This document shows, in pieces, positions 2,479-16,518 of a stretch of DNA of 16,518 bases. Location of the stretch: positions 1-16,518 of the forward strand of contig QMVQ01000013.1 in NCBI GenBank assembly GCA_003661185.1, given 5' to 3'. The stretch comes from Candidatus Alkanophagales archaeon. Lineage in GTDB: Archaea; Halobacteriota; Syntropharchaeia; Alkanophagales; B39-G2. A model generated the notes under the pieces. The model was not told where the DNA came from and did not search any database. It saw only the letters and a list, made by a program, of their open reading frames with translations. A program made the translations under genes and the position numbers. The stretch's first letter is position 1, and each line of letters starts with the position of its first letter.

Positions 2479-2557
2479 CGTCGTGGCGGCTTCCGACAGC
2501 GCTTTGCGTCAATACTAACTGCTCGCCACAAGTGGCACGCCGCACACGTCTGCGAAC

Positions 2558-2588
2558 GCCGCTCAGCCTACGGCAAGGAGCGGCTGAG
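2558..2588. terminator. Overlapping alternative hairpins at the convergent thiolase end
   Basis: Two 7-bp perfect inverted repeats interleave here. GCCGCTC (2558-2564) pairs with GAGCGGC (2578-2584), and CTCAGCC (2562-2568) pairs with GGCTGAG (2582-2588). They share bases, so only one stem can form at a time. They straddle the thiolase stop (2570-2568) in the gap between two converging genes. A bidirectional transcript-end structure is the likely role, but no T-tract follows on either strand and archaeal termination mostly relies on U-runs. The rest of the gap (2479-2557) holds one 12-base palindrome at 2525-2536 and nothing else I can support. Confidence 0.3.
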
Positions 2589-3737
2589 GATGTGGACAAC
2601 AGCAGTCCCGCCGGTGCCGCCGACGTTGTGCGTAAGCCCGATTTCGGCGTTCGTTTGCCTGCCTTTTGCGTCGCCTCGCAGTTGCAGCGTGATTTCGACG
2701 GCTTGCCTTATTCCTGTGGCACCGAGGGGGTGTCCGCAAGCTTTCAGCCCGCCCGAGGGATTCACTGGGATGTGCCCACCGATTTCCGTGGCGCCGTCCT
2801 CAACGGCACGTCCGCCCTCGCCTTTTTCGAAAAAGCCTAAGTCCTCAATTGCCATTATCTCAGCGATGGTGTAAGAGTCGTGCACTTCCGCCACGCCAAT
2901 GTCTGTAGGCGAGATTCTGGCGATTTTGTAAGCTGTCCTCGCCGCTACCGCCGTCGCCTTCACAGTCGTCAGGTCCTCTCTGTCGTGCAGAGCGAGGAAG
3001 TCGCACGCCTGCGTCGATGCACGGATGTAAATTGGCGTGTCGGTGTATTTGCGAGCGTCTTCCGCAGCGCATAAAACGACGGCGGCAGCACCATCCGCCA
3101 CGGGCGAGCAGTCGAGCACCCGCAACGGGTCGGCGACGATTGGCGAGCGCAGGACGGCATCGACGCTTATCTTGCTTCTGAACTGCGCAATCTCATTGTT
3201 GCTTGCGTTTTTGTGATTTTTGACGGCGACGAGCGCTAATTGCTCCCTCGTGGTCCCGTATTTCTGCATGTGCGCCCGTGCCATCATTGCGAAGAGCGCC
3301 GGCAGCGTCGCTCCTTGCATCGCCTCCCACTCCCGGTCGGTCGAAGCCGCAAGCAACTCGTCTATCGCATTCGGGTCGGCGTCCGTCATTTTTTCGACGC
3401 CCGCAGCTACGACCACATCATACCAGCCAGAAGCGACGGCGAGCGTCGCAACGTGTAATGCCAAACCGCCGGAGGCGCACGCCGCTTCGACCCTGCAAGC
3501 TGGGATATGCAGCGACGCCAACCCGACGTGGTCTGCAATCAGTGTGCCGATGTGCTCCTGCTGTATGAAGCTCCCAGCGCTCATGTTGCCACCGAAGATT
3601 GCTTCTATCTCCTCACCGCTTATCCCAGCGTCCTCTATGGCTCTCACACCCGCCTCCACTGCCAGCTCCCGGAAAGAACGCTCCCAAAGCTCCCCAAACT
3701 TCGTGCAACCTACCCCAATTATTGCCACTTTTCTCAT
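2568..3737 (-). CDS. Thiolase family protein (archaeal acetyl-CoA acetyltransferase type)
   Basis: The 389-residue product is a full-length thiolase of the archaeal/SCP-x type. It would condense or cleave acyl-CoAs, for instance 2 acetyl-CoA to acetoacetyl-CoA. The nucleophilic cysteine is in VEAACASGG (Cys87). AEVHDSYT (283-290), [17 protein letters not shown] (326-342, catalytic His336) and [10 protein letters not shown] (368-377) complete the active site. The start chosen is ATG at 3737, directly behind GGGGGAAATT; an in-frame TTG at 3749 lies inside that ribosome binding site. It follows rtcB by 28 bases on the same strand and is probably co-transcribed. In many archaea this thiolase sits next to HMG-CoA synthase and a DUF35 OB-fold protein for mevalonate synthesis. 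Neither is here, so a role in acyl-CoA degradation is equally possible. The enzyme class is sure, the direction is not. Confidence 0.93.
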
Positions 3738-3765
3738 AATTTCCCCCAAGTAATTTGAGCAAAAA

Positions 3766-5250
3766 TTAGCCCTTCATCACCCCAATGGCTCTGAGCGCCG
3801 CGACTTTCTTCGCAATGCCCGCACGCTCGCAGCACTCCACAACAACCTCAGGGTTCTTGTAGGCGCCGGCGGCTTCTTCCGCAAGCTCGCTGAGCCTATC
3901 GCCTTTACGCCTCTTGGAGGGGCGGCAGCGCACCACGATGTTTCGCCGCTCAAGCTCCCGCTTCACCTGCTCGCCCTTATAAATCTTCGTCGCCCGCGTG
4001 CGGCTCATCTCCCGCCCAGAACCATGAGCGCACGTCCCGAAGGTCTCCCGCATTGCAGTCTCAGTTCCAACGAGGAGGAAGCTGCGTGTCCCCATCGAGC
4101 CCGGCAGGAGGACCGGCTGTCCCACGCCCCTGTAAACCTCAGGAAGTCGCTCGTCGCCGGCGATGAACGCCCTCGTCGCACCTTTCCTGTGGACACAAAG
4201 CTCCATATTCGCACCGTCAACCTCATGCACTTCTCGCTTTGCGATGTTGTGCGCCACGTCGTAAACGAGCTGGATTTCCATACTCTCCGCCGAGTTCTTT
4301 AGGACTCTCTCAAAAGTCTGCCGGACCCAGTGCGTCGCGAGCTGCCTGTTCGCCCAAGCGTAGTTAGCGCATGCACACATCGCTTCGAAGTAGTCCATGC
4401 CGACTTTTGAATTCAGGTAAGCGCACGCCAGCTCTCTTTCAAGTTCGAAGATGCGGTTCAGCGTCGCATCCTTCCGCATTTCCCGCTCGAAGACTCTTAG
4501 GTAATAGGAACAGACACCGTGCGAGAAGCCGCGCCCGCCGGTGTGTATGAGGATTGCAACCTGCCCGACATCGAAAATCCCAAACTTCTTCGCAAGCTCT
4601 TCATCAAAAATCTCATCAACTACTTGGACTTCAAGGAAGTGATTGCCGGAGCCGAGTGTGCCCAACTGCGGGGCGCCCCGCTGTCTCGACTTCTCGTCTA
4701 TTTTCTCAGGGTTTGCCTCCGCAAGCCGCCCTCCATCCTCTGTCCGCTTCAAATCATCCTCCCAACCGTAGCCGTGCTCTACACACCACTCAGAACCCGC
4801 AACCAGAACCTCATCAAGCTCCTTATAGGAGAGGCGGAGCTTCCCTGAAAGCCCGAGCCCAGCCGGGATGCTCTCGAAAAGCCCGTCCATCAGCTCGTTG
4901 AGGTGCGGGCGCACGTCTTTCTCTAAAAGATTCGTCCTGATGAGGCGGACGCCGCAGTTGATATCGTACCCCACCCCCCCAGGGCTTATTACGCCGTTGT
5001 TAAAGTCTGTGGCAGCGACGCCGCCTATCGGGAAGCCATAGCCCTGATGCCCGTCAGGCATGACCATAGAATACTTCTGGATGCCCGGCAGCGATGTCAC
5101 GTTAATCGCCTGCTGCAGTGTCATGTCTTGTTTCATCTTCTCCATGAGTTTGACGTCGGCGTAAACACGGGCGGGGACTCTCATGAAATCCTTATAATCT
5201 TGCGGAATCTCATAGACACAATCCCTTACTTTTCTTAGAGGAACTTCCAT
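3766..5250 (-). CDS. rtcB: RNA-splicing ligase RtcB (3'-phosphate/5'-OH RNA ligase)
   Basis: RtcB joins RNA ends left by the tRNA splicing endonuclease, using GTP and Mn2+. The 494-residue product contains all recognised elements: [16 protein letters not shown] (65-80), [12 protein letters not shown] with metal ligands Asp97 and Cys99, GTLGSGNHF (His204), LIHTGGRG (His236), DVAHN (His334) and [11 protein letters not shown] with the guanylylated His409. No intein interrupts it. The start chosen is ATG at 5250 behind GAGAGGTGAGAGA; the in-frame GTG at 5268 lies upstream of that site. It is divergent from the ACT/homoserine dehydrogenase pair and shares its promoter region. A T5 run follows the stop (RC of 3761-3765), just before the thiolase. 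The archease cofactor gene is not in the window. Confidence 0.97.
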
Positions 5251-5285
5251 TCTCTCACCTCTCCACACTTATCTTACTCAAAAAG

Positions 5286-5294
5286 GTATAAAAG
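5286..5294. promoter_or_regulatory. Shared TATA box for divergent rtcB and ACT-hom transcripts
   Basis: GTATAAAAG at 5286-5294 reads as a TATA box on the plus strand, preceded by the purine-rich, BRE-like AAAAAGG. On the minus strand the same bases read CTTTTATAC. A start about 25 bases downstream would fall near 5317 for the ACT gene and near 5263 for rtcB. The latter leaves a short leader containing the GGTGAGAG ribosome binding site. No other AT-rich candidate exists in the 106-base gap, so one box may serve both directions. Confidence 0.55.
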
Positions 5295-5298
5295 CATA

Positions 5299-5316
5299 AG
5301 TTCCAAAAAAGGAACT
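5299..5316. promoter_or_regulatory. Inverted repeat, candidate operator for ACT-hom
   Basis: AGTTCC (5299-5304), six A residues and GGAACT (5311-5316) form a perfect 6-bp dyad between the TATA box at 5287-5294 and the expected start site near 5317. Binding here would block RNA polymerase on the ACT-hom side and lie upstream of the TATA box on the rtcB side. This is the usual position for an archaeal repressor site. Formation of a hairpin in a nascent transcript is less likely because the dyad is upstream of the predicted start. Confidence 0.45.
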
Positions 5317-5356
5317 AGGGAGGTTTAACTCGTTGCAGAAGGCAGAGGCGTAAATT

Positions 5357-5860
5357 ATGAAGGTGTCGATGGACATAGAGCTGAAGGACGTTCCCGGGCA
5401 GCTTGTCTCCGCCCTTATCCCCATTTCAGAACTCGGCGGCAACATAATCAGTGTGCTCCACCACCGAGACAGGAAAACGCAACGTGGCACAATCCCCGTG
5501 CAAGTTGTTTTCGACGTCGAGGAGAGCAAGCTTGCGGCTCTGCTGCAACGACTCCGAGAGCGTGGAATCACGGTCGTGCGAGTCGGTGCCGAAAGGCTCA
5601 AGGAGGCAGTGTTCGTCCTGCTGATCGGGCATATCGTCCGCTCCGGCGTGAAGGAGCTGATAAACGAGGTTGACGGGACGGGCGTCGCCGAAGTCGTCGA
5701 GCTTTTCCTATCGATGCCTGCCGTCGAAGAAAAGTCAGCGGCAGCTCTGAAAATTCGAGCTATCGGCAAGATGGAACTGGAAAGGGCCTTGGATATTGTT
5801 GAGGGATTTGCAGCAAGGTGTGGCATTCTCGTCGTGCGTCCGATAGAGGACGAGCTTTAA
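5357..5860 (+). CDS. ACT-domain regulatory protein, two tandem ACT modules
   Basis: The 167-residue protein begins with a clear ACT domain: MDIELKDVPGQL (5-16), then ELGGNIISVLHHRD (24-37), where the Pro-Gly turn and the GGNI..V.H pattern form the amino-acid binding interface. A second, more diverged ACT-like module covers about residues 83-165 and has EAVFVLLIGHIV (83-94) and a terminal CGILVVRP. There is no catalytic domain. It lies 9 bases upstream of homoserine dehydrogenase in the same operon, so it is most simply an allosteric partner sensing threonine or another aspartate-family amino acid, in place of the ACT domain fused to Hom in most bacteria (inference). Start: ATG at 5357 behind GAGGCG. 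Confidence 0.88.
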   Translation: MKVSMDIELKDVPGQLVSALIPISELGGNIISVLHHRDRKTQRGTIPVQVVFDVEESKLAALLQRLRERGITVVRVGAERLKEAVFVLLIGHIVRSGVKELINEVDGTGVAEVVELFLSMPAVEEKSAAALKIRAIGKMELERALDIVEGFAARCGILVVRPIEDEL

Positions 5861-5869
5861 GGTGATTGG

Positions 5870-6922
5870 ATGAGAGAGGTAAAGCTCTCAATCGTGGGCT
5901 TCGGCGTCGTCGGGCGTGGCGTCGCCGAAGTCGTTGCGAGAAAGCGGGCAGAGATTGGTGAGCGGTTTGGGCTTGATTTAAGGATTGTTGCGGTCGTTGA
6001 CCTTTGGGGCGCCGCTCTCGCCTCCGACGCTGATGGCGGCGGGCTTGACCCTCGCCGCATCCTCGACGCCCTGCAGAAAGGTGGAGCAGAGGGCCTGTCC
6101 CCCCGAGAGAGCCTTGAGGCGCACGGCGTGAGGGTGGAGGAGTTGCAGAGTCCCGACGTGATTCAGGAGGTGGAGCACGACGTCACCGTCGAGGCAACGC
6201 CCACGAACGTCGATAACGACGGCGAGCCCGGCACGAGCCATATCCTCACCGCCCTAAAAGCGGGAAGGCACGTCGTGACCTCAAACAAAGGGCCGTTAGC
6301 GCTGCACTTCAATAAGCTTATGCAAGCGGCAAAGCGTGCCGACCGCAAGATAGGCTTCGAAGCAACAGTCGGCGGCGCCATGCCCATCATCTCGCTCAGA
6401 GACACGCTTGCGGGCAACGAAATCCTCTGCATCAAAGGCATCCTGAACGGCACATGTAACTACATACTCACGAGAATGGGCGAGGAGAACATGCCCTTCG
6501 AGCACGCCCTCCGAGAGGCGCAAGAAATGGGCATCGCCGAAGCCGACCCAAGGAGCGACGTCCTCGGCGTGGACACAGCGGTCAAGCTCGTAATCCTCGC
6601 AAATGCGCTCCTCGGGCTCGACGCCGCCTACAAGGACGTGAGAGTCACCGGCATCACAGAAATAACGCCTGAAGCGTTAAGCCTTGCGAGGGACAACGGC
6701 TACGTCATCAAGCTCATCGGCGAAGTTGACCGGGATGGGAAACTGGAGGTAGCGCCGAAGCTCGTCCCGGAAACGCACCCCCTCAACGTCGGCGGGACTT
6801 TGAACGCTGCACTTTTGAAAACAGACCTTGCTGGCGAGGTCATGGTCGTCGGGCGGGGCGCCGGCGGCATCGAAGCCGCTAGCGCCATCATCAGCGACAT
6901 CATCAGAATTTTCAAAAATTAA
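5870..6922 (+). CDS. hom: Homoserine dehydrogenase, without a C-terminal ACT domain
   Basis: This enzyme reduces aspartate-semialdehyde to homoserine, the branch point to threonine and methionine. The 350-residue product has the Rossmann motif GFGVVGRG (10-17), TVEATPTN (106-113), VVTSNKGPLA (135-144), GFEATVGGAMPII (162-174), GILNGTCNYIL (190-200) and the catalytic region ADPRSDVLGVDTAVKL (225-240), with Lys239 as the probable catalytic lysine. It ends at residue 350, without the about 80-residue ACT tail of bacterial Hom, matching the separate ACT gene just upstream. The ribosome binding site AAGGTGATTGG precedes ATG 5870; the ACT stop overlaps this site region. It is convergent with the ligase operon. 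Confidence 0.96.
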   Translation: MREVKLSIVGFGVVGRGVAEVVARKRAEIGERFGLDLRIVAVVDLWGAALASDADGGGLDPRRILDALQKGGAEGLSPRESLEAHGVRVEELQSPDVIQEVEHDVTVEATPTNVDNDGEPGTSHILTALKAGRHVVTSNKGPLALHFNKLMQAAKRADRKIGFEATVGGAMPIISLRDTLAGNEILCIKGILNGTCNYILTRMGEENMPFEHALREAQEMGIAEADPRSDVLGVDTAVKLVILANALLGLDAAYKDVRVTGITEITPEALSLARDNGYVIKLIGEVDRDGKLEVAPKLVPETHPLNVGGTLNAALLKTDLAGEVMVVGRGAGGIEAASAIISDIIRIFKN

Positions 6923-6968: not shown

Positions 6969-8297
6969 TCACATTTTCGTCTCGTCCAGCACTCTTTCAA
7001 TCTTGTGGAAAATCACGGGCAGCCCTGAGAACGACACCCATCTTATCTCGGCTTCGACGCCTAATTTCTCTCTTATCCGCTCGCAGATACTGCTTGCAAG
7101 CGCCTCCTCGTCTTCCGGACGCACCCAAGGCTCGTGTCGCATGTCTATTTTTAACTTCGTCATCTCATGGGCATACTTCCGAATGGTGAAGGCGCCTTCC
7201 ACAGTCTCCGGGAATTCCTCAATGACACGCCGCACGTCTATTGGGTATATCTCCTTACCGCCCACTTTTATGCGCCACGAAATTCTGTCACGAGGGACAA
7301 GCCGTGCGTGCGTCCTACCGCAGCCGCAGCGTTCTGTCTCCAGATACGCAACGTCCTCAGTGCCGTAGCGTATGAAAGGCATGTCCCTCGCAAACAAACT
7401 TGTGACGACAACCTCGCCGCTCTCGCCTGAGTCCGGCGGAATCACATCGCCGCTGTCCGGGTCAAGAATCTCAACGTGGAACATGTCTTCCCAGAAATGG
7501 TTACCGTTGTGCTCCGGGCATTCCACCGCCACGATATGGCTCTCAGAGCAGCCGTAGAGGTCATAGACGCCGCCAGTGATGCCGAACTCTTGCATGAGGT
7601 GTTCCTTAAACTTTGGCGGGAAAGATTCACCGCCGCACACGAGGTTTCTCACGCCGCCGTAAAGCTCGTGCGGCTCTTTCCCGGTGTGTTCACGAATCTC
7701 GTCCCGGATCGCCATGAGCAGCGGCTGGTCCATGAACATGAAATCAGGCTTGAAACCCGCAAGCCAGACATAGCGCTCTGCGGTTATCGGATGCACGAAG
7801 TCGATCATGAGATGCATGCCGAACCGCCGGTATGCCGTGACCGAAGGCGGTCCGAGCCAGTGCCAGTTTAACTGAATCGTCAGCGCTTTATCGCCGGGGC
7901 GAGCATCCGTCATCCAGAAATGTCGACACATCATCTCCGCACATATCTTAAGTTCGGTCTCAGCATACGTAACGAACGTCGGGATGCCTGTCGTGCCCGT
8001 CGACGGATTTATCAACAGCACGTCCTCCAGCGGCATGCAGAGCAGCCCGGCAAACGGGTCGCCCGTCTTATCCCGCTCCGCCCTGATGTCGTCCTTCCTG
8101 AACACCGGTATCTTTTCAAAGTCTTTGAAGCTCCGAACGTCATCAGGCGTTACGCTCGCCTCTTTAAACCGCTTGTGGTAGAACGGCGAATTATAGTAAG
8201 CGTATCTTATGATCGCACGCAGTCGCCTCAGCTTCAGCTCCTCAAGCTCTGCCCTTGGCAGCCTCTCAATGACGTTCCAATAAGCGCTCTCTTGCAT
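6969..8297 (-). CDS. Phenylacetate-CoA ligase-like AMP-forming acyl-CoA ligase (intact)
   Basis: This is an adenylate-forming ligase of the PaaK branch, which would activate an (aryl)carboxylate as its CoA thioester with ATP. The 442-residue product has the PaaK N-terminal helix (LRAIIRYAYYNSPFYHKRF, 26-44) and an intact glycine-rich ATP loop NPSTGTTGIPT (97-107). Further motifs are YGCSES (248-253), RYGTED (310-315, usually RYRTGD), CGCGRTHARL (324-333) and GGKEIYP in the C-terminal lid (346-352). HKIERV (431-436) carries a lysine in place for adenylation. The start ATG at 8297 follows GGTGGGAGC, which begins at the stop of the previous gene (TGAGGTGGG). It is the last gene of the operon and the only one of three tandem paralogues with a normal ATP loop, so it is probably the working ligase. 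The true substrate is unknown. Confidence 0.92.
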   Translation of the reverse strand: MQESAYWNVIERLPRAELEELKLRRLRAIIRYAYYNSPFYHKRFKEASVTPDDVRSFKDFEKIPVFRKDDIRAERDKTGDPFAGLLCMPLEDVLLINPSTGTTGIPTFVTYAETELKICAEMMCRHFWMTDARPGDKALTIQLNWHWLGPPSVTAYRRFGMHLMIDFVHPITAERYVWLAGFKPDFMFMDQPLLMAIRDEIREHTGKEPHELYGGVRNLVCGGESFPPKFKEHLMQEFGITGGVYDLYGCSESHIVAVECPEHNGNHFWEDMFHVEILDPDSGDVIPPDSGESGEVVVTSLFARDMPFIRYGTEDVAYLETERCGCGRTHARLVPRDRISWRIKVGGKEIYPIDVRRVIEEFPETVEGAFTIRKYAHEMTKLKIDMRHEPWVRPEDEEALASSICERIREKLGVEAEIRWVSFSGLPVIFHKIERVLDETKM

Positions 8298-8306
8298 GCT
8301 CCCACC

Positions 8307-9431
8307 TCACAGGCGCAGGAAAATGCGGCGGTGCGTTCTGCCACAGCCGCAACGCTCGTCCTCAAACGTCGCCGTTATTCCCGTTTTGTATCTAATGAGC
8401 GGCGTCGCCTCCGCGAAAATGTTCGTGAGAACGAGGTCGCCCCACTCCCCGGCACTCACACACTCGCCAGCGGCATCAATAACCTCGACAACGAACGCAT
8501 CCTCCCAAACGTGCAAGCCACAGTGCTCTGCGCAATCCGACGCGTAAAACAGGATGTCCTGAATGTCAAGCAGCGTGAAAACATCTTCTACGCCCCATAC
8601 TTCTTTTATCCTGCTTCGTTTCTCCTCGTTTGCATAAAAAAGCTCGTAAAATGGCGCCCGCAGCACGATGACCCGATACCCAATGGAGCGGGGCGAGAAC
8701 TCCTCCTCCTTAACCACCTTAAAGGAGGTAGTCTCGGAAACTGCCACTTCAACCGTGACTTTTTCGCCCTCGCTCACGGGCGTCAAATAACTCTCAAGCG
8801 TTGCAAGCGCTGTCTCAGTCGTGAAGAGCACGTCGGGCTTGAAAAACCGTCCTGTATGAATCGTTCTCGGCACATCCGGCACGAAGAGCTCCTGCGGGAT
8901 AATTCGGCAGCCTAAAACGCCGCCGACGCTCGTGAGCCCGAAAGTGTGCGACGGGAAGCTGAACGCAAAGCCAAACGCCTCCCACGCCCAGCACTGCACC
9001 TGCACCAAGTCCTTTGGAGCAACGCCCTCCATCACCCAGATCCGCGTCAGCAGCTCCACAACCTCCCGCTGGTCTGCCACCGTCAGCGCAGTAACGACTG
9101 GAATATCCTCAAGCGGCACGAACGGCCACTCTGGCGGCGAAATGCTCAGTATCAGGCGGTCTGCAGGCACGCACAGCCGCCCCCCATAAAAGTCCCCAGA
9201 GTCTTTTACCGCACGCTGCAAATCCTCCCTCGTTACAAGCGGCAACCTCCTCAAATCCTCGACGCCCCGTATCTCGTCGGGCGTCACGCCCGCCTCTCTG
9301 AATCGCTGGTGGTGGAGAGGCGAGCTCTCGTAAACTCGCCGCAGTTGCGCTCTGAGTCTTCGCTCCTGGAGTTTTCTCAGCTCCTCCTTCGGCATTACCT
9401 CCACTTTCGGGTTAAACATGCGATTTTCCAT
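8307..9431 (-). CDS. Truncated PaaK-like ligase paralogue, ATP loop and C-domain missing
   Basis: The 374-residue product aligns from its first residues with the neighbouring ligases: LRAQLRRVYESSPLHHQRFREAG (26-48), then RYKTG (347-351) and CGCGRTHRRIFLRL at the very end. Two essential parts are absent. Where the ATP loop should be it reads SISPPEWPFVPL (96-107), without the Ser/Thr-Gly pattern, and the protein stops about 13 residues after the CGCG motif, so the roughly 110-residue lid domain is gone. The YG.SE motif is also unrecognisable (IQDILFYASDC, 290-300). The frame is otherwise clean, 15 bases after the previous gene and 9 bases before the next, and its TGA is merged with the next ribosome binding site. 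That looks like a maintained non-catalytic paralogue, perhaps a partner subunit, rather than a recent pseudogene (inference). Confidence 0.8.
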   Translation of the reverse strand: MENRMFNPKVEVMPKEELRKLQERRLRAQLRRVYESSPLHHQRFREAGVTPDEIRGVEDLRRLPLVTREDLQRAVKDSGDFYGGRLCVPADRLILSISPPEWPFVPLEDIPVVTALTVADQREVVELLTRIWVMEGVAPKDLVQVQCWAWEAFGFAFSFPSHTFGLTSVGGVLGCRIIPQELFVPDVPRTIHTGRFFKPDVLFTTETALATLESYLTPVSEGEKVTVEVAVSETTSFKVVKEEEFSPRSIGYRVIVLRAPFYELFYANEEKRSRIKEVWGVEDVFTLLDIQDILFYASDCAEHCGLHVWEDAFVVEVIDAAGECVSAGEWGDLVLTNIFAEATPLIRYKTGITATFEDERCGCGRTHRRIFLRL

Positions 9432-9445
9432 GATTCGCTACACTC

Positions 9446-10726
9446 CTACTCAAACTCCCTTTTGTCAACAACAAGTTTTGCGTCCTCATAAAGCTTGTCC
9501 ACAAATTCAACACTCGCCCGCAGCTTTATGACTTCCTTAAGCTCGCTTTCGAGGGTCTTCCGCAACTCCTCGCTCCTGTCCTTGCTTTCAACCACGATTG
9601 TAAGCTCGTCAAGCGTCGCCGGGCGCTCAATCACCATTTGGAACCTCCCAAGCTCGGGATGACGTCGTAACACGCTCTCAACCTGCGAAGGCACTACGAA
9701 CATGCCTCTAACCTTGACGACGTCGCTTACACGCCCCACAATCTTCAGCAGTCTCGAAGAGCTCCTACCGCATTCGCAGACGCCCTCCTCAAGCCCTGCT
9801 GCGAGGTCGCCTGTTCTGTATCTAAGTAGAGGCATGCTCCTGCGTTGTAAGAACGTAGCAACGACCTCACCCGGCTCTCCCGGCGGCACATGCTCCCCAG
9901 TTTTCGGGTCAATTAGCTCCAAAACGATGTCCTCGTAAATATGCAAGCCTCGGACCTTGCCGCTCGCCGCCGCGGGGCACTCCCTCGCCATTATGCCTAC
10001 TTCCGCCGCTGCATATATTTCCATGGGCGCAAGCCCGAAGAGCGCATTAAGCTCCCGCTTCAGGCTGTCAGGCACTGCTTCCCCTGTAAAAACGCCAACT
10101 CTCAGCCGTAAATCCTGTTTCGGCTTTAAGCCAAGCTCTTGCGCACGTTTGCCAATCTGCATTAAGAAACTCGGCGTGCCCACGAACGCCGTTACGGAGG
10201 CAGCCCGCATCACCTGTATGTGCATGTCGGTGAAGCCCGTGCCCGCAGGAATGACCGCAGCGCCAATCCTGCGACAGGCATCGTCGAAGACAGTGCCGGC
10301 GGGCACCCAGTTATATGCAAATGCCACGTCCACGACGTCGCCCGCTCGGACGCCGCACGTGTAGAAGCATGCTGCACACATTTCCACGGCATTTTCCAGC
10401 TCGTCCTTCGTCAGCGGGTAAAAAATGGGACCGGGTGATATAAAGATCCTTACAACTTTATCCGGCGGCACCGCCAGGAATTCGCCAAACGGCGGCTTCT
10501 CCCGCTCGTTCTCTATAATTTCAAGCTTTGAAATCATTGGAACCTTTTCGAAGAAGTCATCAAGATTCTTAATGTCCTCAGGACGTAGCCCCCGCTCATC
10601 GAACTGCCGGCGGTAGTAAGGCGAATGCTCATAGGCATATTTGACGTATTCGAGCAGCAGTTTTTCTTGATGCGCTCGCAACTTCTCAGGCGGCAGCGCT
10701 TCCACCTCAGGACGCCAAAACTCCAT
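9446..10726 (-). CDS. PaaK-like AMP-forming ligase with substituted ATP loop
   Basis: The 426-residue product has full PaaK-like architecture: an N-terminal helix LLEYVKYAYEHSPYYRRQF (24-42), RYRTGD (302-307), ECGRSSSRL (318-326), the hinge GRVSDVVKVRG (331-341) and a C-terminal lid ending in KLVVDKRE with a possible catalytic Lys. The ATP loop, however, reads ISPGPIFYPLT (96-106) rather than SSGTTGKPT. I recall the SPGPIY-type loop from other anaerobe PaaK homologues, so it may mark a subfamily rather than a dead enzyme. Start: ATG at 10726, with GGGATG in front. It is the first of three tandem paralogues, and the region around residues 237-247 (IYAAAEVGIMA) replaces the usual YG.TE motif. 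Substrate unknown. Confidence 0.88.
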   Translation of the reverse strand: MEFWRPEVEALPPEKLRAHQEKLLLEYVKYAYEHSPYYRRQFDERGLRPEDIKNLDDFFEKVPMISKLEIIENEREKPPFGEFLAVPPDKVVRIFISPGPIFYPLTKDELENAVEMCAACFYTCGVRAGDVVDVAFAYNWVPAGTVFDDACRRIGAAVIPAGTGFTDMHIQVMRAASVTAFVGTPSFLMQIGKRAQELGLKPKQDLRLRVGVFTGEAVPDSLKRELNALFGLAPMEIYAAAEVGIMARECPAAASGKVRGLHIYEDIVLELIDPKTGEHVPPGEPGEVVATFLQRRSMPLLRYRTGDLAAGLEEGVCECGRSSSRLLKIVGRVSDVVKVRGMFVVPSQVESVLRRHPELGRFQMVIERPATLDELTIVVESKDRSEELRKTLESELKEVIKLRASVEFVDKLYEDAKLVVDKREFE

Positions 10727-10735
10727 AACGCATCC

Positions 10736-11008
10736 CTAAATATCGATAACGGCGCCCAACTCTTGCGCCCGCTTCACGGCTTCGTCCCGCTCGTAAAACC
10801 ACTCCACTGCCTTGCCCTTTGCGACTTTTATTGACATGTTGCCGACAAGCTCCACAATCACGTATTTGGGAAAAGGTTTAAGAGACGGGGGGTCCTCTCG
10901 AATCATCACCCGCCGCCTCGTGCTCTTCATTATGCCCATGCACACCTGCTTCCCGCCGCTGATGATTTCCACCAAAATGAGCTTTGGTGTCGCTGTCTGC
11001 GCCTGCAT
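10736..11008 (-). CDS. Small protein of unknown function (90 aa)
   Basis: The 90-residue product is not recognised. It is basic in the middle (KSTRRRVMI) and seems to alternate beta strands (LILVEII, YVIVELV) with a C-terminal helix EWFYERDEAVKRAQELG (69-85), compatible with a small alpha/beta domain. It has one cysteine and no signal peptide. The start ATG at 11008 follows AGGGGGCTCGAGT, and the gene lies 11 bases from the Fe-S protein before it and 9 bases from the ligase after it, so it belongs to the operon. A role as an accessory subunit of the oxidoreductase or ligase is a guess from position only. Confidence 0.7.
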   Translation of the reverse strand: MQAQTATPKLILVEIISGGKQVCMGIMKSTRRRVMIREDPPSLKPFPKYVIVELVGNMSIKVAKGKAVEWFYERDEAVKRAQELGAVIDI

Positions 11009-11019
11009 ACTCGAGCCCC

Positions 11020-12249
11020 CTAAAGGGCGTTCGCCAACAGCTCCACGAGGTCAAGCACCTCGATGCTCTTACCGGAGGCTGCGACCGCGTCCTTGAAGTT
11101 GTGCACGCAGAACGGGCACGGCGTGACTAAGGTTTGAGCACCAGTCTCTTCAACCTCTTTCAGGCGTTCGATTGCCGTCCACACGGCGAAGTCATCGAAT
11201 GCCGCCTTCACGCCTCCGCCAGAGCCGCAACACCAGCTCTGCTCCCTGTTCCTCTTCATCTCCACGAGTTCCACACCTGGCACCGCTTTTACAAGCTCAC
11301 GTGGCGGCTCGTAGACAGCGGCAAAGCCCAAATGCCGCCCGAGGTGGCAAGGGTCGTGGTATGTGACCTTCCTCTGCATTTCCTTGAATTTCAGCTTCCC
11401 CTCCTTAACGAGCTGCGGCAGGTATTCCGAGACGTGCAGGCACTCGAATCCGAGGTCGCCGAAAAGCTGCGGATAGTCCTCCTTGAACGTGCGGTAGCAG
11501 CCCGCACAGGAGAAGATGACGGTCTTCACGCCCATCTGCTTCAGCGTTTCGACATTATGCTTTGCGGTTTCGACAGCCGCTGATTTCTGCCCGGTGCGCA
11601 ACAGCGGCGAGCCGCAGCACCACTCGTCGCTCATGACGCCGAAGTCCACGCCCGCAGCTTTTAGCAACTTCACCGTCGAAACAGCAATGCTCGGCTCTCG
11701 GTAAGATGATGTGCAGCCGACGAAGTAGATAACCTCGGCATTCTTCACGGGCGGCTCTCCGACGTCGGACGACGCAAAACACGCCCGCCGCTTCTCGTGC
11801 GGCTCGTTGTAGGGGTTGTGGTTGAGCTTGATGCTCTCAGCAAACGCCTTCTGTGCAGGGAGCGGCCCCCAGCCAAGTTCTTCAGAAAGGACCGTCCGTA
11901 ACGCCTCGAAGGCTTCGACGTGGTCGATGCCCATGACGTCGGTGCCCTGTGTAACGTGCCCTTTACACTGCTGCCGGCAGCCGCCGCACACCGTGCACGC
12001 ATAAATGATCTCGAGGAGGCGTTCTGACGGCTCCTTTATGTCGCGCTCGGCGATTGCCCGTAGCGTTTCCAGCCTGCCGGAGCCGTAGTAAGCTTCGTAT
12101 TTGAAATACTCACCGCTCGGGCATATCGGCAATGGTGCGCCGAGCTTGTGATAATTCACGAAGTGGCAAGTTCGCTCCTTGCCGCAGCGATATGCCCATG
12201 CCGCATACTTGCGCAGCGACTCTATGACGTTTTCAAGAATCGTGACCAT
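11020..12249 (-). CDS. Fe-S oxidoreductase with two CCG domains (HdrD/GlpC-like)
   Basis: The 409-residue protein is an electron-transfer subunit of the HdrD/GlpC/LldE type. It has a [4Fe-4S] motif CTVCGGCRQQC (Cys85, 88, 91, 95), then two cysteine-rich CCG domains. The first has Cys179, WCCGSP (211-212), and Cys248/251 in CAGC; the second has Cys301 (HDPCHLG), WCCGSG (340-341) and Cys378/381 in CPFC. Only one standard ferredoxin motif is present. Upstream Cys22, Cys28 and Cys43 (the last in PICPSG) may form a second, irregular site in place of the usual second CxxCxxC. It follows the FAD oxidase by 13 bases, with ribosome binding site GAGGTGGTAAA before ATG 12249. Such pairs act as flavoprotein plus Fe-S partner in D-lactate and glycolate oxidation, so it probably takes electrons from that enzyme. 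Confidence 0.9.
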   Translation of the reverse strand: MVTILENVIESLRKYAAWAYRCGKERTCHFVNYHKLGAPLPICPSGEYFKYEAYYGSGRLETLRAIAERDIKEPSERLLEIIYACTVCGGCRQQCKGHVTQGTDVMGIDHVEAFEALRTVLSEELGWGPLPAQKAFAESIKLNHNPYNEPHEKRRACFASSDVGEPPVKNAEVIYFVGCTSSYREPSIAVSTVKLLKAAGVDFGVMSDEWCCGSPLLRTGQKSAAVETAKHNVETLKQMGVKTVIFSCAGCYRTFKEDYPQLFGDLGFECLHVSEYLPQLVKEGKLKFKEMQRKVTYHDPCHLGRHLGFAAVYEPPRELVKAVPGVELVEMKRNREQSWCCGSGGGVKAAFDDFAVWTAIERLKEVEETGAQTLVTPCPFCVHNFKDAVAASGKSIEVLDLVELLANAL

Positions 12250-12262
12250 TTTACCACCTCAC

Positions 12263-13693
12263 TCACACAAAGACCTTTCCGGGGTTCATTATGTCGTGCG
12301 GGTCGATGAGGTCTTTGATTGCCTTCCAGAGCTTTGCGTAATTGCCCATCAGCGGGAGGGCTGCGCTCATGTTTCCGGGGTTCGGTCTGAAGTAAGCGTA
12401 GGCGCCCATTTCGATGATTTTCTGGTGATATTCGTCGGTGAAGTTGATGAGTTTTTGCCGCTCCTCCTCGTTGGTCGGATCGAACCATGTTTCGACTTCA
12501 TAATAGCAACTCTGCCCGTGCTTGCAGTAGTCAAATGGCGCAATGAACCAGCCGCACGTGTCGTAGTCAAGCCCGTGTTTCAGCCAGAGCTTCTTTGTCT
12601 CCTCATGATACACCGGAGCCAATTTCATCTGAGCGAAGAACGGCACCGCATAGTAGCTACCGAGGCGGAACCACGAAGCGACGTCCCTTGGATACGTCAT
12701 CTCGTTGACCAAGTCCTCAGGCATCGGGAATATCTCGCCGCCCGCCACGTAGTTGGAATTCCTCACGATATTCTCCGCCATTTCCCTCTCCCATTCCATC
12801 CGCCCTTTCGTCTCCTCGGTGCCTTCGATGGCGAGCCAGACGACGTATTCGCCCCACGTGCCTTTAAACTCCATGACGTCTTCCGCTCGACCTGAGAAAA
12901 TCATAGCGAAGCCGAGCCAGTGCATGCCCATGCAACTCGTGCCGATTTCGTATTTGCCGAATTCAAGAATCACACGCACGAGCTCGTTCAAGTCGTCGTA
13001 ACCCGCAACGACCCAGTCCTTAATGTCGCAATACGGGAAGAGCTTTGCGCACATTTTTGTGATGACGCCCATGGTGCCGGGTTGGTTCTGGAAGAGCCCT
13101 GTCAAGTCGGGACCCTGCCCGTATCTCGAATACGGACCGGGCGAGTTCGGGAAGCCCCAAGAGCCCGTGTATAAGACCTCGCCGTTGGGCAGGACAACCT
13201 CCATGGAGAGCACGTTCTCGATACCATCTTTCCACTGGTGGTGGTAAAGCCCTCGGAGCGAGTAGTTTGCGACTGCGGACGCCGTCGCCGGGCATCCCGG
13301 AACTGCGGGGCGGACGCCATGTTTCATACACTCTGAAGCGAGCTGCGCGATCGTGACGCCGGGCTCGATGACGCATGCCATCATTTCAGTGTTAATCTCA
13401 AGGATGCGGTTCATCTTCCGCATGTCCAGCATGATGCCGCCCTGCGTGGGGATGCAGAGCCCTCTGACGTTAATTCCGGCGCTGTAAGGGATCACTGGGA
13501 TGCGCTCTCGGTATGCGAGCCGCATCACCGCTTGCACTTCCTCTCTTGACTTCGGGCGGACGACGTAGTCCGGACGCATCGGTGGCACGAACGGCCATTG
13601 CTGGTCCCTTGCATACGTCCAAAGCACTTCTTCGTCGTCAGTTACGTTCTCCTCTCCAACAATATCCTCCAAATGTCTAACTAATCTACTCAT
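12263..13693 (-). CDS. FAD-linked oxidoreductase, PCMH/VAO superfamily
   Basis: The 476-residue flavoprotein has a PCMH-type FAD domain over about residues 38-221: RPDYVVRPKSREEVQAVMRLA (40-60), PVIPYSAGIN (66-75), CVIEPGVTIAQL (107-118), MEVVLPNGEVLYTGS (164-178), and YGQGPDLTGLF.. PGTMGVITK (191-213). It ends DPHDIMNPGKVFV, typical of the family. The superfamily includes D-lactate/glycolate dehydrogenases and 4-cresol/vanillyl alcohol oxidising enzymes. The VVLPNGEV-TG-GPDLTGLF stretch looks to me close to the cresol branch, but PGTMG resembles the lactate branch, so the substrate is open. Its neighbours are an unknown protein 9 bases upstream and the CCG Fe-S partner 13 bases downstream. 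Start: ATG 13693 behind GGGTGGTCAT, which follows the previous stop directly. It is cytoplasmic, as no signal peptide is visible. Confidence 0.9.
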   Translation of the reverse strand: MSRLVRHLEDIVGEENVTDDEEVLWTYARDQQWPFVPPMRPDYVVRPKSREEVQAVMRLAYRERIPVIPYSAGINVRGLCIPTQGGIMLDMRKMNRILEINTEMMACVIEPGVTIAQLASECMKHGVRPAVPGCPATASAVANYSLRGLYHHQWKDGIENVLSMEVVLPNGEVLYTGSWGFPNSPGPYSRYGQGPDLTGLFQNQPGTMGVITKMCAKLFPYCDIKDWVVAGYDDLNELVRVILEFGKYEIGTSCMGMHWLGFAMIFSGRAEDVMEFKGTWGEYVVWLAIEGTEETKGRMEWEREMAENIVRNSNYVAGGEIFPMPEDLVNEMTYPRDVASWFRLGSYYAVPFFAQMKLAPVYHEETKKLWLKHGLDYDTCGWFIAPFDYCKHGQSCYYEVETWFDPTNEEERQKLINFTDEYHQKIIEMGAYAYFRPNPGNMSAALPLMGNYAKLWKAIKDLIDPHDIMNPGKVFV

Positions 13694-13702
13694 ATGACCA
13701 CC

Positions 13703-14389
13703 CTATCGTAACGGCCAAGTCACCTCCCTCAGCCACTTCTGGAATCTGTCCTTGCTCATCAATAAGAAGCCCTTCATCGTCGGTGGTAGCGGAAACATGT
13801 CGAAGCGTCTCGGCTTGAGATGCCAATTGTCGTAGAGGATGCCTGCTGCTGCGTCCACATCATCAGGATAAGACCGAGGTTCGTAAATCCGCTGCTCCGA
13901 GAGTGGCTTGTCCTGCTCCACGGTCGGAGCGTTCGCAAAGTCTTCGAGGTATAAAGCTTCGACGTGCAGCTTCCGGCTCTTGTCAGGTCTCGTCGGCGCA
14001 ATCGCTTCATGCATCAGCTTGATGCCCTCTTCGAGGGGATATTGCTTGAATATTTCAGTAACAGGCACGTCGAGCGTCGGGTGCTTTATCCCGGCAAGGT
14101 CAAGCTCCTCGTAAGTCACAGAGTAGCCGTAGTCCACGAAGTTAAGGTGCACGTGTTTTATGTTTCTTGCCTCATCGAGCCAGCACGTGATGACCTCCGC
14201 TTTCATTCCGAGGAGCATTCGCTTCTCGGACGCTGCTGGTCTGATTTTATATACGATCCACGGCCAGAACTCGCCATACGCGGGCGTGTCCGGCGGAATC
14301 TTGCCCTCCTTTGCCTGCACGTTCTTCTCGACCGCCTCTTTCGCCCTGAAAATGATTTCTTCGACCAGTTCCTGTTCCGAAAATCCCAT
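13703..14389 (-). CDS. Protein of unknown function, first gene of the FAD oxidase operon
   Basis: The 228-residue product is unrecognised. It starts MGFSEQELVEEIIFRAKEAV with an acidic amphipathic helix and is rich in aromatic residues and prolines (GEFWPWIVYKIRP, 39-51; RRFDMFPLPPTMKGFLL, 193-209). Only one cysteine is present and there is no membrane segment or signal peptide. It could be a soluble partner or assembly subunit of the flavoprotein. Evidence for linkage is the strong promoter just upstream, the GAGGTGGTCTA ribosome binding site before ATG 14389, and only 9 bases to the FAD oxidase, whose ribosome binding site begins at this gene's TAG. No homology is claimed. Confidence 0.82.
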   Translation of the reverse strand: MGFSEQELVEEIIFRAKEAVEKNVQAKEGKIPPDTPAYGEFWPWIVYKIRPAASEKRMLLGMKAEVITCWLDEARNIKHVHLNFVDYGYSVTYEELDLAGIKHPTLDVPVTEIFKQYPLEEGIKLMHEAIAPTRPDKSRKLHVEALYLEDFANAPTVEQDKPLSEQRIYEPRSYPDDVDAAAGILYDNWHLKPRRFDMFPLPPTMKGFLLMSKDRFQKWLREVTWPLR

Positions 14390-14427
14390 TAGACCACCTC
14401 AACCGCTGAGATTTTCATTAAATATAG

Positions 14428-14442
14428 TTATATAATTTTCGG
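14428..14442 (-). promoter_or_regulatory. BRE/TATA promoter for the unknown-FAD-CCG-ligase operon
   Basis: On the minus strand 14442-14428 reads CCGAAAATTATATAA, a purine-rich BRE followed by a TATA box, in the 100-base AT-rich gap between the ferredoxin gene end (14490) and ATG 14389. A start about 25 bases downstream falls near 14405, leaving a leader of about 15 bases that still contains the GAGGTGGT ribosome binding site. A second AT-rich stretch (AAAATATAAACC, 14454-14443) lies just upstream and could act as an alternative box. It suggests the seven genes down to 6969 can be transcribed separately from the AOR genes. Confidence 0.6.
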
Positions 14443-14489
14443 TTTATATTTTGCACATTGAGATGGCGTGCTCAGCCACTGCAACGCCG

Positions 14490-14954
14490 CTATATAAGCT
14501 TCTCCACAGCTTTTTTCAAGTGTTCGTCACGCATTCCGTCAACAATTTCTTCGAAAGTCGCCAGCTTCAAAGCACTTTCAGGGCAGAATTTTATACATTG
14601 CGGCTCGCCACCGCAGAGGTCGCAGGCGACAGGAAGCTCGGCGTCGGGCTTCAGTATCAGCACGCCGAACTCGCAGGCTTCGACACACACGCCGCACGCC
14701 GTGCAGTTCTCCTCGGCAACGCTGAGCACGCCGTTCTCGTCGGCGCTTAACGCCTCGTTCGGACAGGCAGCGACGCACGGCGGCTCATTGCAGAAATGGC
14801 AAGCAAACGCTATCGAAAAGCCTGGACTCTCCTTTATAACCCTTATTCTCGCCTTTTCAGGGTTAAATACCCGTTCCTTCACGCCTGAGCAAATGAGTTC
14901 GCAAAGGCAGCAGCCCGAACACTTCTCAGGGTCCGAAATAACATATTTCCGCAT
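14490..14954 (-). CDS. Four-cluster ferredoxin subunit (HycB/DmsB-like), AOR partner
   Basis: The 154-residue protein carries four [4Fe-4S] motifs. They are CSGCCLCELIC (Cys12, 15, 18, 22), CHFCNEPPCVAAC (52, 55, 60, 64), CTACGVCVEAC (84, 87, 90, 94) and CDLCGGEPQCIKFC (111, 114, 120, 124). The arrangement is that of HycB/DmsB-type electron-transfer subunits. The start chosen is ATG at 14954, behind AGGTGGTGCGG, which overlaps the AOR stop (TAG at 14966-14964); a GTG at 14963 lies inside that ribosome binding site. Immediate coupling to the AOR gene means it carries electrons from the tungsten enzyme, as in two- and three-subunit bacterial AORs and in the BamB/BamC pair of benzoyl-CoA reductase. 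Its soluble acceptor is unknown. Confidence 0.93.
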   Translation of the reverse strand: MRKYVISDPEKCSGCCLCELICSGVKERVFNPEKARIRVIKESPGFSIAFACHFCNEPPCVAACPNEALSADENGVLSVAEENCTACGVCVEACEFGVLILKPDAELPVACDLCGGEPQCIKFCPESALKLATFEEIVDGMRDEHLKKAVEKLI

Positions 14955-14963
14955 CCGCACCAC

Positions 14964-16518
14964 CTAAACCGACAGCCCCAGCTCTCTCAATTTCCCAGCA
15001 GTTGGCACGCCGCCTTCGTCCCAGCCTCGCAACCTGTAATACTCGCTCAGCCGCCGCTCGAACTCCTCCCTGGGGATGACCTCGCCACTCGCTGCACCCT
15101 TCGGCAGCGGCTCCTCGTAGAAACGGTCTGGCAGCCAGTCGTCCTCCTTACCCCGCAAACCTTCTCTGAGGTTGAATAGCCTTTCGAGGTTCCAAATACG
15201 TTCGCCGATACGTTCAAGCGTCTTAACCGAGAAATCAAAGCCGGTGACAAGAGAAATCAAAGATGCAAGCTCCTCCTTGCGTAGCAGGACGCCGAAAAAC
15301 TTGCAGATGATAGCGGAGTCGAGAACTTGCATCCAATCTTCAAGCTCCTTCACCAGCCGCACCTTCTCAGAACTAAGCTCCAGTGGGTCGACGGTGACCA
15401 TGGCGAGCGGCATTGCCATGCCGAAATCCACGAGTGTCATTAACGCACCAAGATGGTCAGCGCCACGGTTTGCTGTTGCAAACGAAAGAGCGGCACCCTT
15501 CATAGCTCTCGGCTCATAGCCCGGGAACTCCAGGCCCTTAACATGCATTGCGTATTTCTCGGCACCCCTACCGAGACGTTCAGCCGCCCGCTTCACGCCT
15601 TCCGCAAGGAGGTCGCCGACGCCCTCCCGCCTCGCAATTCTCTCTAAAAGTTCGATGACGATGTCGGCGTCGCCCCACCGCAACTCCAGCCCGCCCGTCC
15701 TATCGGCATCCAAAACGCCCGCCTCGTAGCACTCCATGGCAAAACCGATGACGCCGCCCGCTGTGATGCCGTCCATTCCAAGTTCGTTGCAGAGGTTGTG
15801 CGCCTTCATCAGAGCATTTAGGTCGTAACAGCCGCATCTCCCCGCTAAAGTGTTTATGTGCTCATATTCGGGACCCTCGCCGAGCTCGTCAGCATATTTT
15901 CCTTCTGGGATCCTGGAGAGACGCCCGCAGCCTATGGGGCAGCCGAAGCACGCCGACTTCTTTAGCACAAGGCTTTCCCTTATGCTTTCTTGGTCAATAG
16001 GCTCGATTTCCTCATAGTCGAACTGTAATTTGAAATTATGCGTCGGGAAGCCGCCGATGGCGTGCACATAAGAGACGATACTGGCGGTGCCGTAAGTACT
16101 TAGTCCAATGGCGAGCGTTTCGTATCTGCCGAGTTCCCGCAGCCTGTCGAGCAGTTTCATGAGTCCATCGAAGTCGCTCACCTGCACGTCCTTCGTGCCA
16201 CGAACCGCAATGGCTTTGAGCCTCTTGGCGCCCATGACGGCGCCGAGCCCGCAACGCCCGGCGGCTCTCGTCGAATCGTTTATTATGGCGGCGAACCTCA
16301 CGAGGTTCTCGCCAGCAGGTCCGATGCACGCGACCTTCACTTTACGGTCGCCTAACTCCTCTCTCAGGATTTTCTCGGTTTCGGTGGTCGAGCTGCCCCA
16401 GAGGTGGGAGGCATCTCTGAGCTCGACGCCGCCGTCGCGGATGACGAGCGCCGTCGGCTTCGCGGCGACGCCCTCGATAATAACGCCGTCGTAGCCCGCG
16501 AATTTCAGCTCGGCGCCG
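14964..16518 (-). CDS. Aldehyde:ferredoxin oxidoreductase (tungsten type), partial
   Basis: The frame is open from the stop at 14964 through the right edge, giving 517 residues; by family length (about 600) the first 80-90 are missing. The visible start reads GAELKFAGYDGVIIEG, an AOR N-domain signature. It continues with RDASHLWG, CIGPAGEN, GRCGLGAVMGAKRLKAIAVRG, CFGCPIGCGR ([4Fe-4S] ligands), NTLAGRCGCYDLNALMKAHN, ELGMDGITAGGVIGFAMEC, RAMKGAALSFATANRGADH and a late Cys in SAIICKFFG (fourth cluster ligand). The GTG at 16340 is internal, not a start. These enzymes oxidise aldehydes to acids at a tungstopterin. The same family includes BamB, the class II benzoyl-CoA reductase subunit, and I cannot exclude such a role. 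It overlaps in control signals with the ferredoxin gene that follows. Confidence 0.93.
   Translation of the reverse strand, partial: GAELKFAGYDGVIIEGVAAKPTALVIRDGGVELRDASHLWGSSTTETEKILREELGDRKVKVACIGPAGENLVRFAAIINDSTRAAGRCGLGAVMGAKRLKAIAVRGTKDVQVSDFDGLMKLLDRLRELGRYETLAIGLSTYGTASIVSYVHAIGGFPTHNFKLQFDYEEIEPIDQESIRESLVLKKSACFGCPIGCGRLSRIPEGKYADELGEGPEYEHINTLAGRCGCYDLNALMKAHNLCNELGMDGITAGGVIGFAMECYEAGVLDADRTGGLELRWGDADIVIELLERIARREGVGDLLAEGVKRAAERLGRGAEKYAMHVKGLEFPGYEPRAMKGAALSFATANRGADHLGALMTLVDFGMAMPLAMVTVDPLELSSEKVRLVKELEDWMQVLDSAIICKFFGVLLRKEELASLISLVTGFDFSVKTLERIGERIWNLERLFNLREGLRGKEDDWLPDRFYEEPLPKGAASGEVIPREEFERRLSEYYRLRGWDEGGVPTAGKLRELGLSV

Follow-up and report, generated by a model that had tools for sequence, protein, structure and literature searches.

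We analyzed a 16,518-base stretch of DNA (the window), which is the whole of contig QMVQ01000013.1 (C13) of a Candidatus Alkanophagales archaeon genome (1.69 Mb, 86% complete), and identified at positions 6969-16518 an operon of nine co-directional minus-strand open reading frames (ORFs) that combines a VAO/PCMH-type FAD protein, an HdrD-like Fe-S protein with CCG domains, a 228 amino acid protein (P228), an aldehyde:ferredoxin oxidoreductase (AOR) and PaaK-like proteins. This operon may encode an accessory route from alkyl-coenzyme M (alkyl-CoM), the product of alkyl-CoM reductase (Acr), to acyl-coenzyme A (acyl-CoA) for beta-oxidation, a reading to which we assign a probability of roughly 0.4. 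What was observed in its favour is which genes are present and in what order, an Acr background in the genome, a second occurrence of the FAD-CCG-P228-AOR set, and the fact that in other phyla acr genes are linked to the FAD-CCG pair and to an Acr-associated protein (AAP) family. In transcription order, the features of the operon are:

14964..16517, minus strand: AOR, 517 amino acids (AFOR_C and AFOR_N over cut-off)
14490..14963, minus strand: four-cluster (4x[4Fe-4S]) ferredoxin, 157 amino acids, likely the electron subunit of AOR (Fer4 families; cysteine count)
14390..14489, minus strand: AT-rich gap of 100 bases with TATA-like stretches, possibly a second promoter (read by eye, without a promoter model)
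13703..14389, minus strand: P228, unknown protein of 228 amino acids, remote relative of the AAP family (homology to AAP)
12263..13693, minus strand: VAO/PCMH-type FAD protein, 476 amino acids, with the clade signature R/K77 plus F435-R436-P437 (FAD_binding_4, profile, tree, signature)
11020..12249, minus strand: CCG (HdrD/TfrB-like) Fe-S protein, 409 amino acids (PF02754 twice; TfrB model; cysteine motifs)
10736..11008, minus strand: unknown protein of 90 amino acids (ORF only)
9446..10726, minus strand: PaaK-like protein, 426 amino acids, P-loop lost (PF00501/PF14535; alignment to PaaK 2y27; motif scan)
8307..9431, minus strand: PaaK-like protein, 374 amino acids, without P-loop and without C-terminal domain (PaaK-type NCBIfam models; no Pfam match)
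6969..8297, minus strand: PaaK-like AMP-forming CoA ligase, 442 amino acids, P-loop STGTTGIP intact (family models, motif scan)

The gaps between these ORFs measure, from left to right, 9, 14, 9, 11, 13, 9, 100 and 0 bases, which bears out the minus-strand run with very short gaps and one 100-base gap described in an initial annotation of this DNA, with nine genes in the ORF list where ten consecutive ones had been counted. The family matches also agree with its AOR and four-cluster ferredoxin, flavoprotein, HdrD-like CCG protein and two unknown proteins (Pfam E-values of 5e-138 for AFOR_C, 3e-39 for CCG and 7e-29 for FAD_binding_4). The end of contig C37 carries 116 codons of an AOR N-terminus (L048:10276-10623) that share exactly 11 bases, in frame, with the end of the window; the 5' end of the AOR gene is probably cut by the contig end and continues on C37. 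Because of this overlap, AOR is probably the first gene of the operon, divergent from the genes for ribosomal protein S13, an S4-domain protein and an RNA polymerase subunit that lie upstream on C37.

To describe the Acr background, we compared MCR_alpha matches across genomes. The genome of the operon has two, both divergent (100 and 72 bits), while 32 of its 51 order-mates of family f2 (ANME-1) have a match, with best scores of 140-161 bits. Since both matches are divergent and the genome's own AAP protein shares 85 and 84% identity with two Candidatus Alkanophagales archaeon proteins, the divergent McrA most likely marks an Acr-type, Alkanophagales background. Twelve genomes were counted as Acr genomes: nine with divergent MCR_alpha only (G000, which is the operon's own genome, G142, G025, G082, G150, G297, G208, G218 and G387), two with a second, weak match (G007 and G027), and G045, which has two matches; G357 (one match, 6e-24, in an otherwise canonical family) and G119 (1e-4) were not counted.

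Four genes of the operon recur together in another genome, and for this reason we regard the gene set as more than a chance neighbourhood. In G218, FAD, CCG, P228 and AOR form one run (L047) with an acr cluster on the same contig, acrA and FAD being about 11 kb apart, and in G208 (Archaeoglobaceae archaeon S009_4_esom), of the same family, P228 and AOR stand at a contig start. In Bathyarchaeota BA2, the genes for FAD, CCG, a 152 amino acid protein, AAP and acrA lie on one strand, with FAD-CCG within 4 kb of acrA; in Helarchaeota Hel_GB_A, acrA adjoins AAP, and a divergent FAD-CCG pair has its FAD gene 304 bases from acrA. AOR is also found near acr in G007, G387 and G142. The conservation check that the initial annotation had called for thus gives a divided answer, with the FAD-CCG-P228-AOR core kept in G218 and the set missing from most relatives, including the sister species. 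Neither of the two outcomes that it had named as speaking against its proposal, an unconserved gene set or a D-lactate or glycolate dehydrogenase identity of the FAD protein, was found in full.

P228 has four database matches, one of which (P0014) covers only 14% of its length and another of which is a Syntrophoarchaeum GoM_oil protein (58%). Among 392 Halobacteriota genomes, it is present in three, all Acr-bearing: the own genome, G218 and G208; we regard a 20-bit match in G373 as chance. Our comparisons relate P228 to AAP, a family encoded near acrA that we named in this analysis (phmmer E 6e-6 among 1710 ORFs; hhalign E 2.7e-5, probability 74.5%). By eye, the core helices and strands of both come in the same order, P228 being the shorter of the two; it is a remote relative of this family. 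AAP is present in 9 of the 392 genomes, eight of which belong to the 12 Acr genomes (Fisher p 3e-13, 12 vs 380), while the ninth, G037, lies outside the 12 and shares a genus with G027 and G045. As the AAP profile contained sequences from G000, G142, G082, G150, G297, G208, G218, BA2 and Helarchaeota, their matches arise by construction, and the informative part of the scan is the absence elsewhere together with the new matches in G007 and G037. In the class of BA2, AAP occurs in one of 141 genomes, BA2 itself, and the AAP members scanned have no Pfam match. Tandem AAP copies precede acrA in G297 (three in L166, two in L165), and the 152 amino acid protein between CCG and AAP in BA2 (L154 6961-7419), without a Pfam match at E 1, resembles sterol-carrier-protein-2 domains by eye.

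The FAD protein was characterized by profile, tree and active-site comparison. A profile of 20 relatives gives PCMH (1wve) as the best solved structure with 173 bits, against 160 bits for D-lactate dehydrogenase; the 1wve match spans positions 6-474 (E 6e-50), which gives the protein a VAO-type FAD fold over its entire length. In a tree of 82 rows, for which 23 ANME-1 rows were reduced to the first eight and the named Methanophagales loci L061 and L062 also kept, the operon protein falls within a 35-row clade (SH-aLRT 97). All placeable rows of this clade belong to Acr or ANME-1 lineages: Methanoliparum, Methanolliviera, family f12, Helarchaeota, Bathyarchaeota BA2, Syntrophoarchaeum GoM_oil, G218, G150, G297, G387, Argoarchaeum and ANME-1. 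Eight rows carry no organism label (P0016, P0018-P0022, P0024 and P0025), P0018 being the BA2 protein by identity. From the joint presence of canonical and divergent Mcr, we infer that family f12 (G007, G037, G027) is Methanoliparia; a FAD fragment of G027 (58% over 3-247) was too short for the tree and is counted as a close copy by identity alone. Within the clade, the operon protein groups with P0016, GoM_oil, P0019 and G218 (support 97), the branch with the known P228 carriers, and all 10 ANME-1 rows branch beside the copies of Argoarchaeum and G387. Outside it lie sulfate reducers, Thorarchaeota, Lokiarchaeota and Methanomethylicota, as well as other FAD copies of the Acr genomes G208, G218, Hel_GB_A and Hel_GB_B. 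BA2 encodes a second FAD protein of the clade (L059 894-2303), which lies some 8 kb upstream of its acr-linked copy and groups with the copies of G007 and G037.

The clade carries its own active-site signature. At residue 77, 31 of the 35 rows have Arg and the other 4 have Lys, and no row among the 47 outside has either (two have His); F435, R436 and Y397 are invariant (35/35), with F435 and R436 occurring together also in two of the 47 outside rows. In an alignment with PCMH (1dii), Tyr95 pairs with residue 77 and Tyr473 with F435, and the active-site Arg474 alone is kept; we take these three PCMH residues to be the phenolate-binding site. Because both phenol-binding Tyr are replaced in all clade rows, phenol or another aromatic compound is an unlikely substrate, and the two basic residues at the former phenolate site (R/K77 and R436) would suit an anionic head group. 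By rough geometry, the distance from sulfonate to alpha carbon in alkyl-CoM may resemble that from oxygen to methyl group in cresol.

The placement among PchF/VAO or Dld/GlcD proteins, which the initial annotation had left to be decided, comes out on the side of PCMH by profile fit. A D-lactate or glycolate dehydrogenase was rejected, as the HxGDG(N) metal motif is found in 0/35 clade rows and model scores fall far under the cut-offs (101.9 bits with the glcD model TIGR00387, cut-off 567.9); this motif, found in 0/47 rows outside as well, separates all 82 rows from true D-lactate dehydrogenases and not the clade from its neighbours.

The remaining operon proteins were assigned by family models and motifs. 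AOR has both its AFOR_N and AFOR_C domains over cut-off, with the N-terminal remainder on C37, and is predicted from its family to oxidize aldehydes with a tungsten cofactor. Compared with 15 other AOR-like rows, it is nearest to the P228-linked AORs of G208 and G218 (45-46%), followed by an ANME-1 AOR about 3 kb from a FAD-CCG pair (44%), the remaining rows reaching 28-41%. The ferredoxin has 17 cysteines in four-cluster ferredoxin spacing. The CCG protein has two CCG domains (CCG at 211 and 340, CxxC at 248 and 378) plus a CxxCxxCxxxC site, and its best named model is TfrB (222.7 bits, under the cut-off of 385); TfrB is also the top named model for the CCG proteins linked to acr in BA2 and Hel_GB_A. 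Each of the three ligase-like proteins has matches to PaaK-type NCBIfam models but stays under the cut-off of the PaaK equivalog TIGR02155 (177, 236 and 95 bits for the 442, 426 and 374 amino acid proteins, cut-off 646.3). In a motif scan, a TSGTTG-type P-loop is present only in the 442 amino acid protein (at position 99), so that the three PaaK-like ligases previously annotated hold as PaaK-type proteins and only one of them as an intact ligase, the other two being degenerate; the 374 amino acid protein is probably not a ligase on its own. Ligase matches in G218 and G208 share 26-36% identity. The 90 amino acid protein has no family match in the Pfam and NCBIfam scans, and among the 2107 ORFs of the fetched loci it has no relative except its own copy.

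C5-C14 alkanes served to enrich Ca. Alkanophaga, which activates them through Acr (Zehnle 2023), and the step from alkyl-CoM to acyl-CoA is reported as unknown in the literature. The reactions by which the operon proteins would fill this step, all of which we infer, can be outlined as follows. P228 would present or bind the alkyl chain, binding being our guess. The FAD protein would take a hydride from the carbon next to the sulfur of alkyl-CoM, or oxidize an alcohol released from it, with R/K77 and R436 holding the CoM sulfonate; hydride removal would yield a sulfur-stabilised cation and, with water, a hemithioacetal that would break down to an aldehyde and HS-CoM. VAO-type flavoproteins remove hydride at benzylic carbons, and prenylcysteine oxidase performs a related reaction. 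The CCG protein would act as the electron acceptor where a cytochrome would otherwise stand, and would perhaps feed the thiol chemistry of CoM and coenzyme B (CoB); TfrB is the CoM/CoB subunit of thiol:fumarate reductase, and no cytochrome family has a Pfam match in the nine operon ORFs, a partner encoded elsewhere not having been searched for. AOR and its ferredoxin would then convert the aldehyde to the acid, and the 442 amino acid ligase, with its intact P-loop, would make acyl-CoA, its two degenerate relatives acting as possible partners or regulators. It is a more doubtful proposal that this is the first known enzyme system oxidizing the thioether alkyl-CoM, made up of P228 as the alkyl-binding partner of a VAO-type FAD/CCG alkyl-CoM dehydrogenase, then AOR and an AMP-forming ligase, and providing the missing link from Acr to beta-oxidation in part of the alkane-oxidizing archaea.

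Several observations weigh against an alkyl-CoM route. In the sister species G142 (88% complete; three divergent MCR_alpha matches), neither P228 nor FAD (at 1e-40) nor the 442 amino acid ligase (at 1e-15) finds a match. Its locus L196 (G142:C5) keeps the thiolase-RtcB-homoserine dehydrogenase order of window positions 1670-6922, with 79-84% identity at the DNA level; the 4.7 kb from there to the end of the contig hold other genes, including a MutS-like one by our reading of the sequence; this difference between congeners at a syntenic locus suggests a gained or lost island. The Syntrophoarchaeum-type genomes G025 and G082, of one genus, likewise have no FAD or P228 at the thresholds used. Since these three genomes are without it, the operon cannot be the sole route, alkane oxidation via Acr does not seem to need it, and the idea of a universal missing step was rejected. 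Of the 10 Acr genomes that possess a close FAD copy, just three carry it on an acr contig within 12 kb; in the other seven (G000, G007, G027, G150, G297, G387 and G393, several of them in short contigs) it is on a contig other than acr or 180 kb away (G387).

The distribution of the FAD-CCG pair in ANME-1 points in the same direction. At E 1e-40, the FAD protein is matched in 48 of 392 Halobacteriota genomes, namely the own genome, 34 of the 51 ANME-1 genomes and 13 others; in ANME-1 the match occurs once per genome, and a CCG gene lies at most 0.6 kb from FAD in 23 of 28 loci (three genomes counted twice), examples being L057 9231-11914 and L058 6783-9529. Methyl-CoM needs no step from alkyl-CoM to acyl-CoA, and to our knowledge ANME-1 use no multi-carbon alkanes; a restriction of the FAD clade to multi-carbon alkane oxidizers was rejected on the 34/51 count. 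Further points on this side are the remoteness of the P228-AAP homology, the VAO-type attack on an unactivated thioether that we would have to assume, the only moderate expression reported for AOR genes in Alkanophaga (Zehnle 2023), and the published proposal that glcD-hdrD pairs oxidize or recycle CoM and CoB thiols (Boyd 2019; Hua 2019).

This last proposal leads to a rival explanation, in which the FAD-CCG pair forms the heterodisulfide by oxidizing CoM-SH and CoB-SH (or works in the opposite sense) with electrons passing via FAD, and AOR and the ligases are mere neighbours. Such a role has been put forward for the glcD-hdrD pairs of Polytropus, Methanomethyliaceae/Verstraetearchaeota and Bathyarchaeota (Boyd 2019; Hua 2019); TfrB as the best named model of the operon, BA2 and Hel_GB_A CCG proteins is in line with it, as is FAD-CCG in ANME-1, which also need heterodisulfide. 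However, the TfrB cut-off is not reached, and the rival accounts neither for the company of P228 and AOR nor for the conservation of the FAD protein's substrate-site signature. Moreover, canonical-Mcr genomes outside ANME-1 also cycle CoM/CoB, but only 4 of 171 have a FAD match at 1e-40 (G017, G037, G127 and G183; the 171 are the 217 genomes with an MCR_alpha match minus 32 ANME-1, 12 Acr and 2 dropped). We consider cofactor recycling unlikely. Slightly better placed, though still rather unlikely, is a salvage of free alcohols or aldehydes (fatty alcohols, or side-chain products of alkylbenzenes) to acyl-CoA by an operon that never meets alkyl-CoM. A sequence of alcohol, aldehyde, acid and CoA ester suits the enzyme set without new chemistry, the occurrence of the operon is accessory and varies between species, PaaK-fold ligases also accept aliphatic acids (one match of the 442 amino acid ligase is 2-hydroxyisobutyryl-CoA synthetase), and a free-alcohol route is proposed for Methanoliparia in the literature; what it does not account for is the linkage of FAD-CCG and AAP to acrA in other phyla and the near restriction of P228 and AAP to Acr archaea.

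The initial annotation had proposed the oxidation of a cresol-like or other aromatic substrate to an (aryl)acyl-CoA, with CCG replacing the cytochrome. The fit of the FAD profile to PCMH among solved structures, the closeness of the ligases to phenylacetate-CoA ligases and the four HGD-D proteins of the genome, a family that includes benzoyl-CoA reductase subunits, would speak for it. Yet the positions of PCMH Tyr95 and Tyr473 are Arg/Lys and Phe throughout the clade, the best-scoring models for the HGD-D pair on C12 are those of 2-hydroxyisocaproyl-CoA dehydratase, with scores under all cut-offs (the second pair is encoded on C62), and the named relatives come largely from alkane- or methane-oxidizing lineages. 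The comparative context points to alkyl-CoM reductase archaea instead, and an aromatic route is in our view improbable.

Parts of this system resemble known ones. With 4-cresol methylhydroxylase (PchF/PchC; PDB 1wve, 1dii), the FAD protein shares the full-length VAO/PCMH flavoprotein fold and the active-site Arg, but both phenol-binding Tyr positions are replaced and an Fe-S protein stands in place of cytochrome c. AOR adjoining a four-cluster ferredoxin is common to AOR systems with a ferredoxin-like subunit, such as Aromatoleum AorAB and Pyrococcus AOR, whereas the operon AOR is linked to FAD-CCG-P228 and nearest to P228-linked AORs. The AMP-forming ligase fold is shared with PaaK and 2-hydroxyisobutyryl-CoA synthetase in one operon copy with intact P-loop, unlike these with the PaaK cut-off not reached and two further, degenerate copies. 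The GlcD-HdrD pairs of Mcr/Acr archaea likewise have a FAD_binding_4 protein adjoining an Fe-S protein with two CCG domains, for which thiol oxidation or CoM/CoB regeneration is the proposed role (Boyd 2019; Hua 2019); here, in contrast, P228, AOR, ferredoxin and PaaK-like proteins are in one operon, and the FAD clade has its own signature. In Ca. Ethanoperedens, an AOR near methanogenesis-pathway genes is also a candidate for the missing step, from ethyl-CoM to acetyl-CoA; the accessible text of that paper describes no FAD-CCG oxidase or P228, and considers free acids unlikely there as the genome lacks CoA ligases, whereas the operon described here carries one.

FAD-HdrD pairs and AORs in Acr archaea were already known; what seems new is how the genes are combined, together with the Acr-linked family and the signature of the active site; a literature search that covered few subscription papers returned no description of the operon, P228 or AAP. 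If alkyl-CoM were the substrate, this would be a new kind of enzyme system, and with concrete proteins, the signature and a family almost exclusive to Acr archaea now named, the question can be put to the test with few purified proteins. Even if this substrate reading is wrong, the gene neighbourhood of Acr includes the FAD-CCG pair and the AAP/P228 family in several phyla.

Housekeeping genes make up the left half of the window (homoserine dehydrogenase, an ACT-domain protein, RtcB, thiolase and a TYW2/Trm5-type methyltransferase). In GC content, the flank of the operon (54%) is almost the same as the operon itself (56%). A short ORF at window positions 2164-2478 encodes a domain of unknown function, DUF6951, and adjoins a small SAM methyltransferase. 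Elsewhere in the genome, beside its own AAP and acrA genes, locus L142 (G000:C12, 4424-15369) encodes a HadBC-like dehydratase pair with its activase, an SDR protein, an acetate-CoA ligase alpha-like protein and a YcaO McrA-thioamidation protein.

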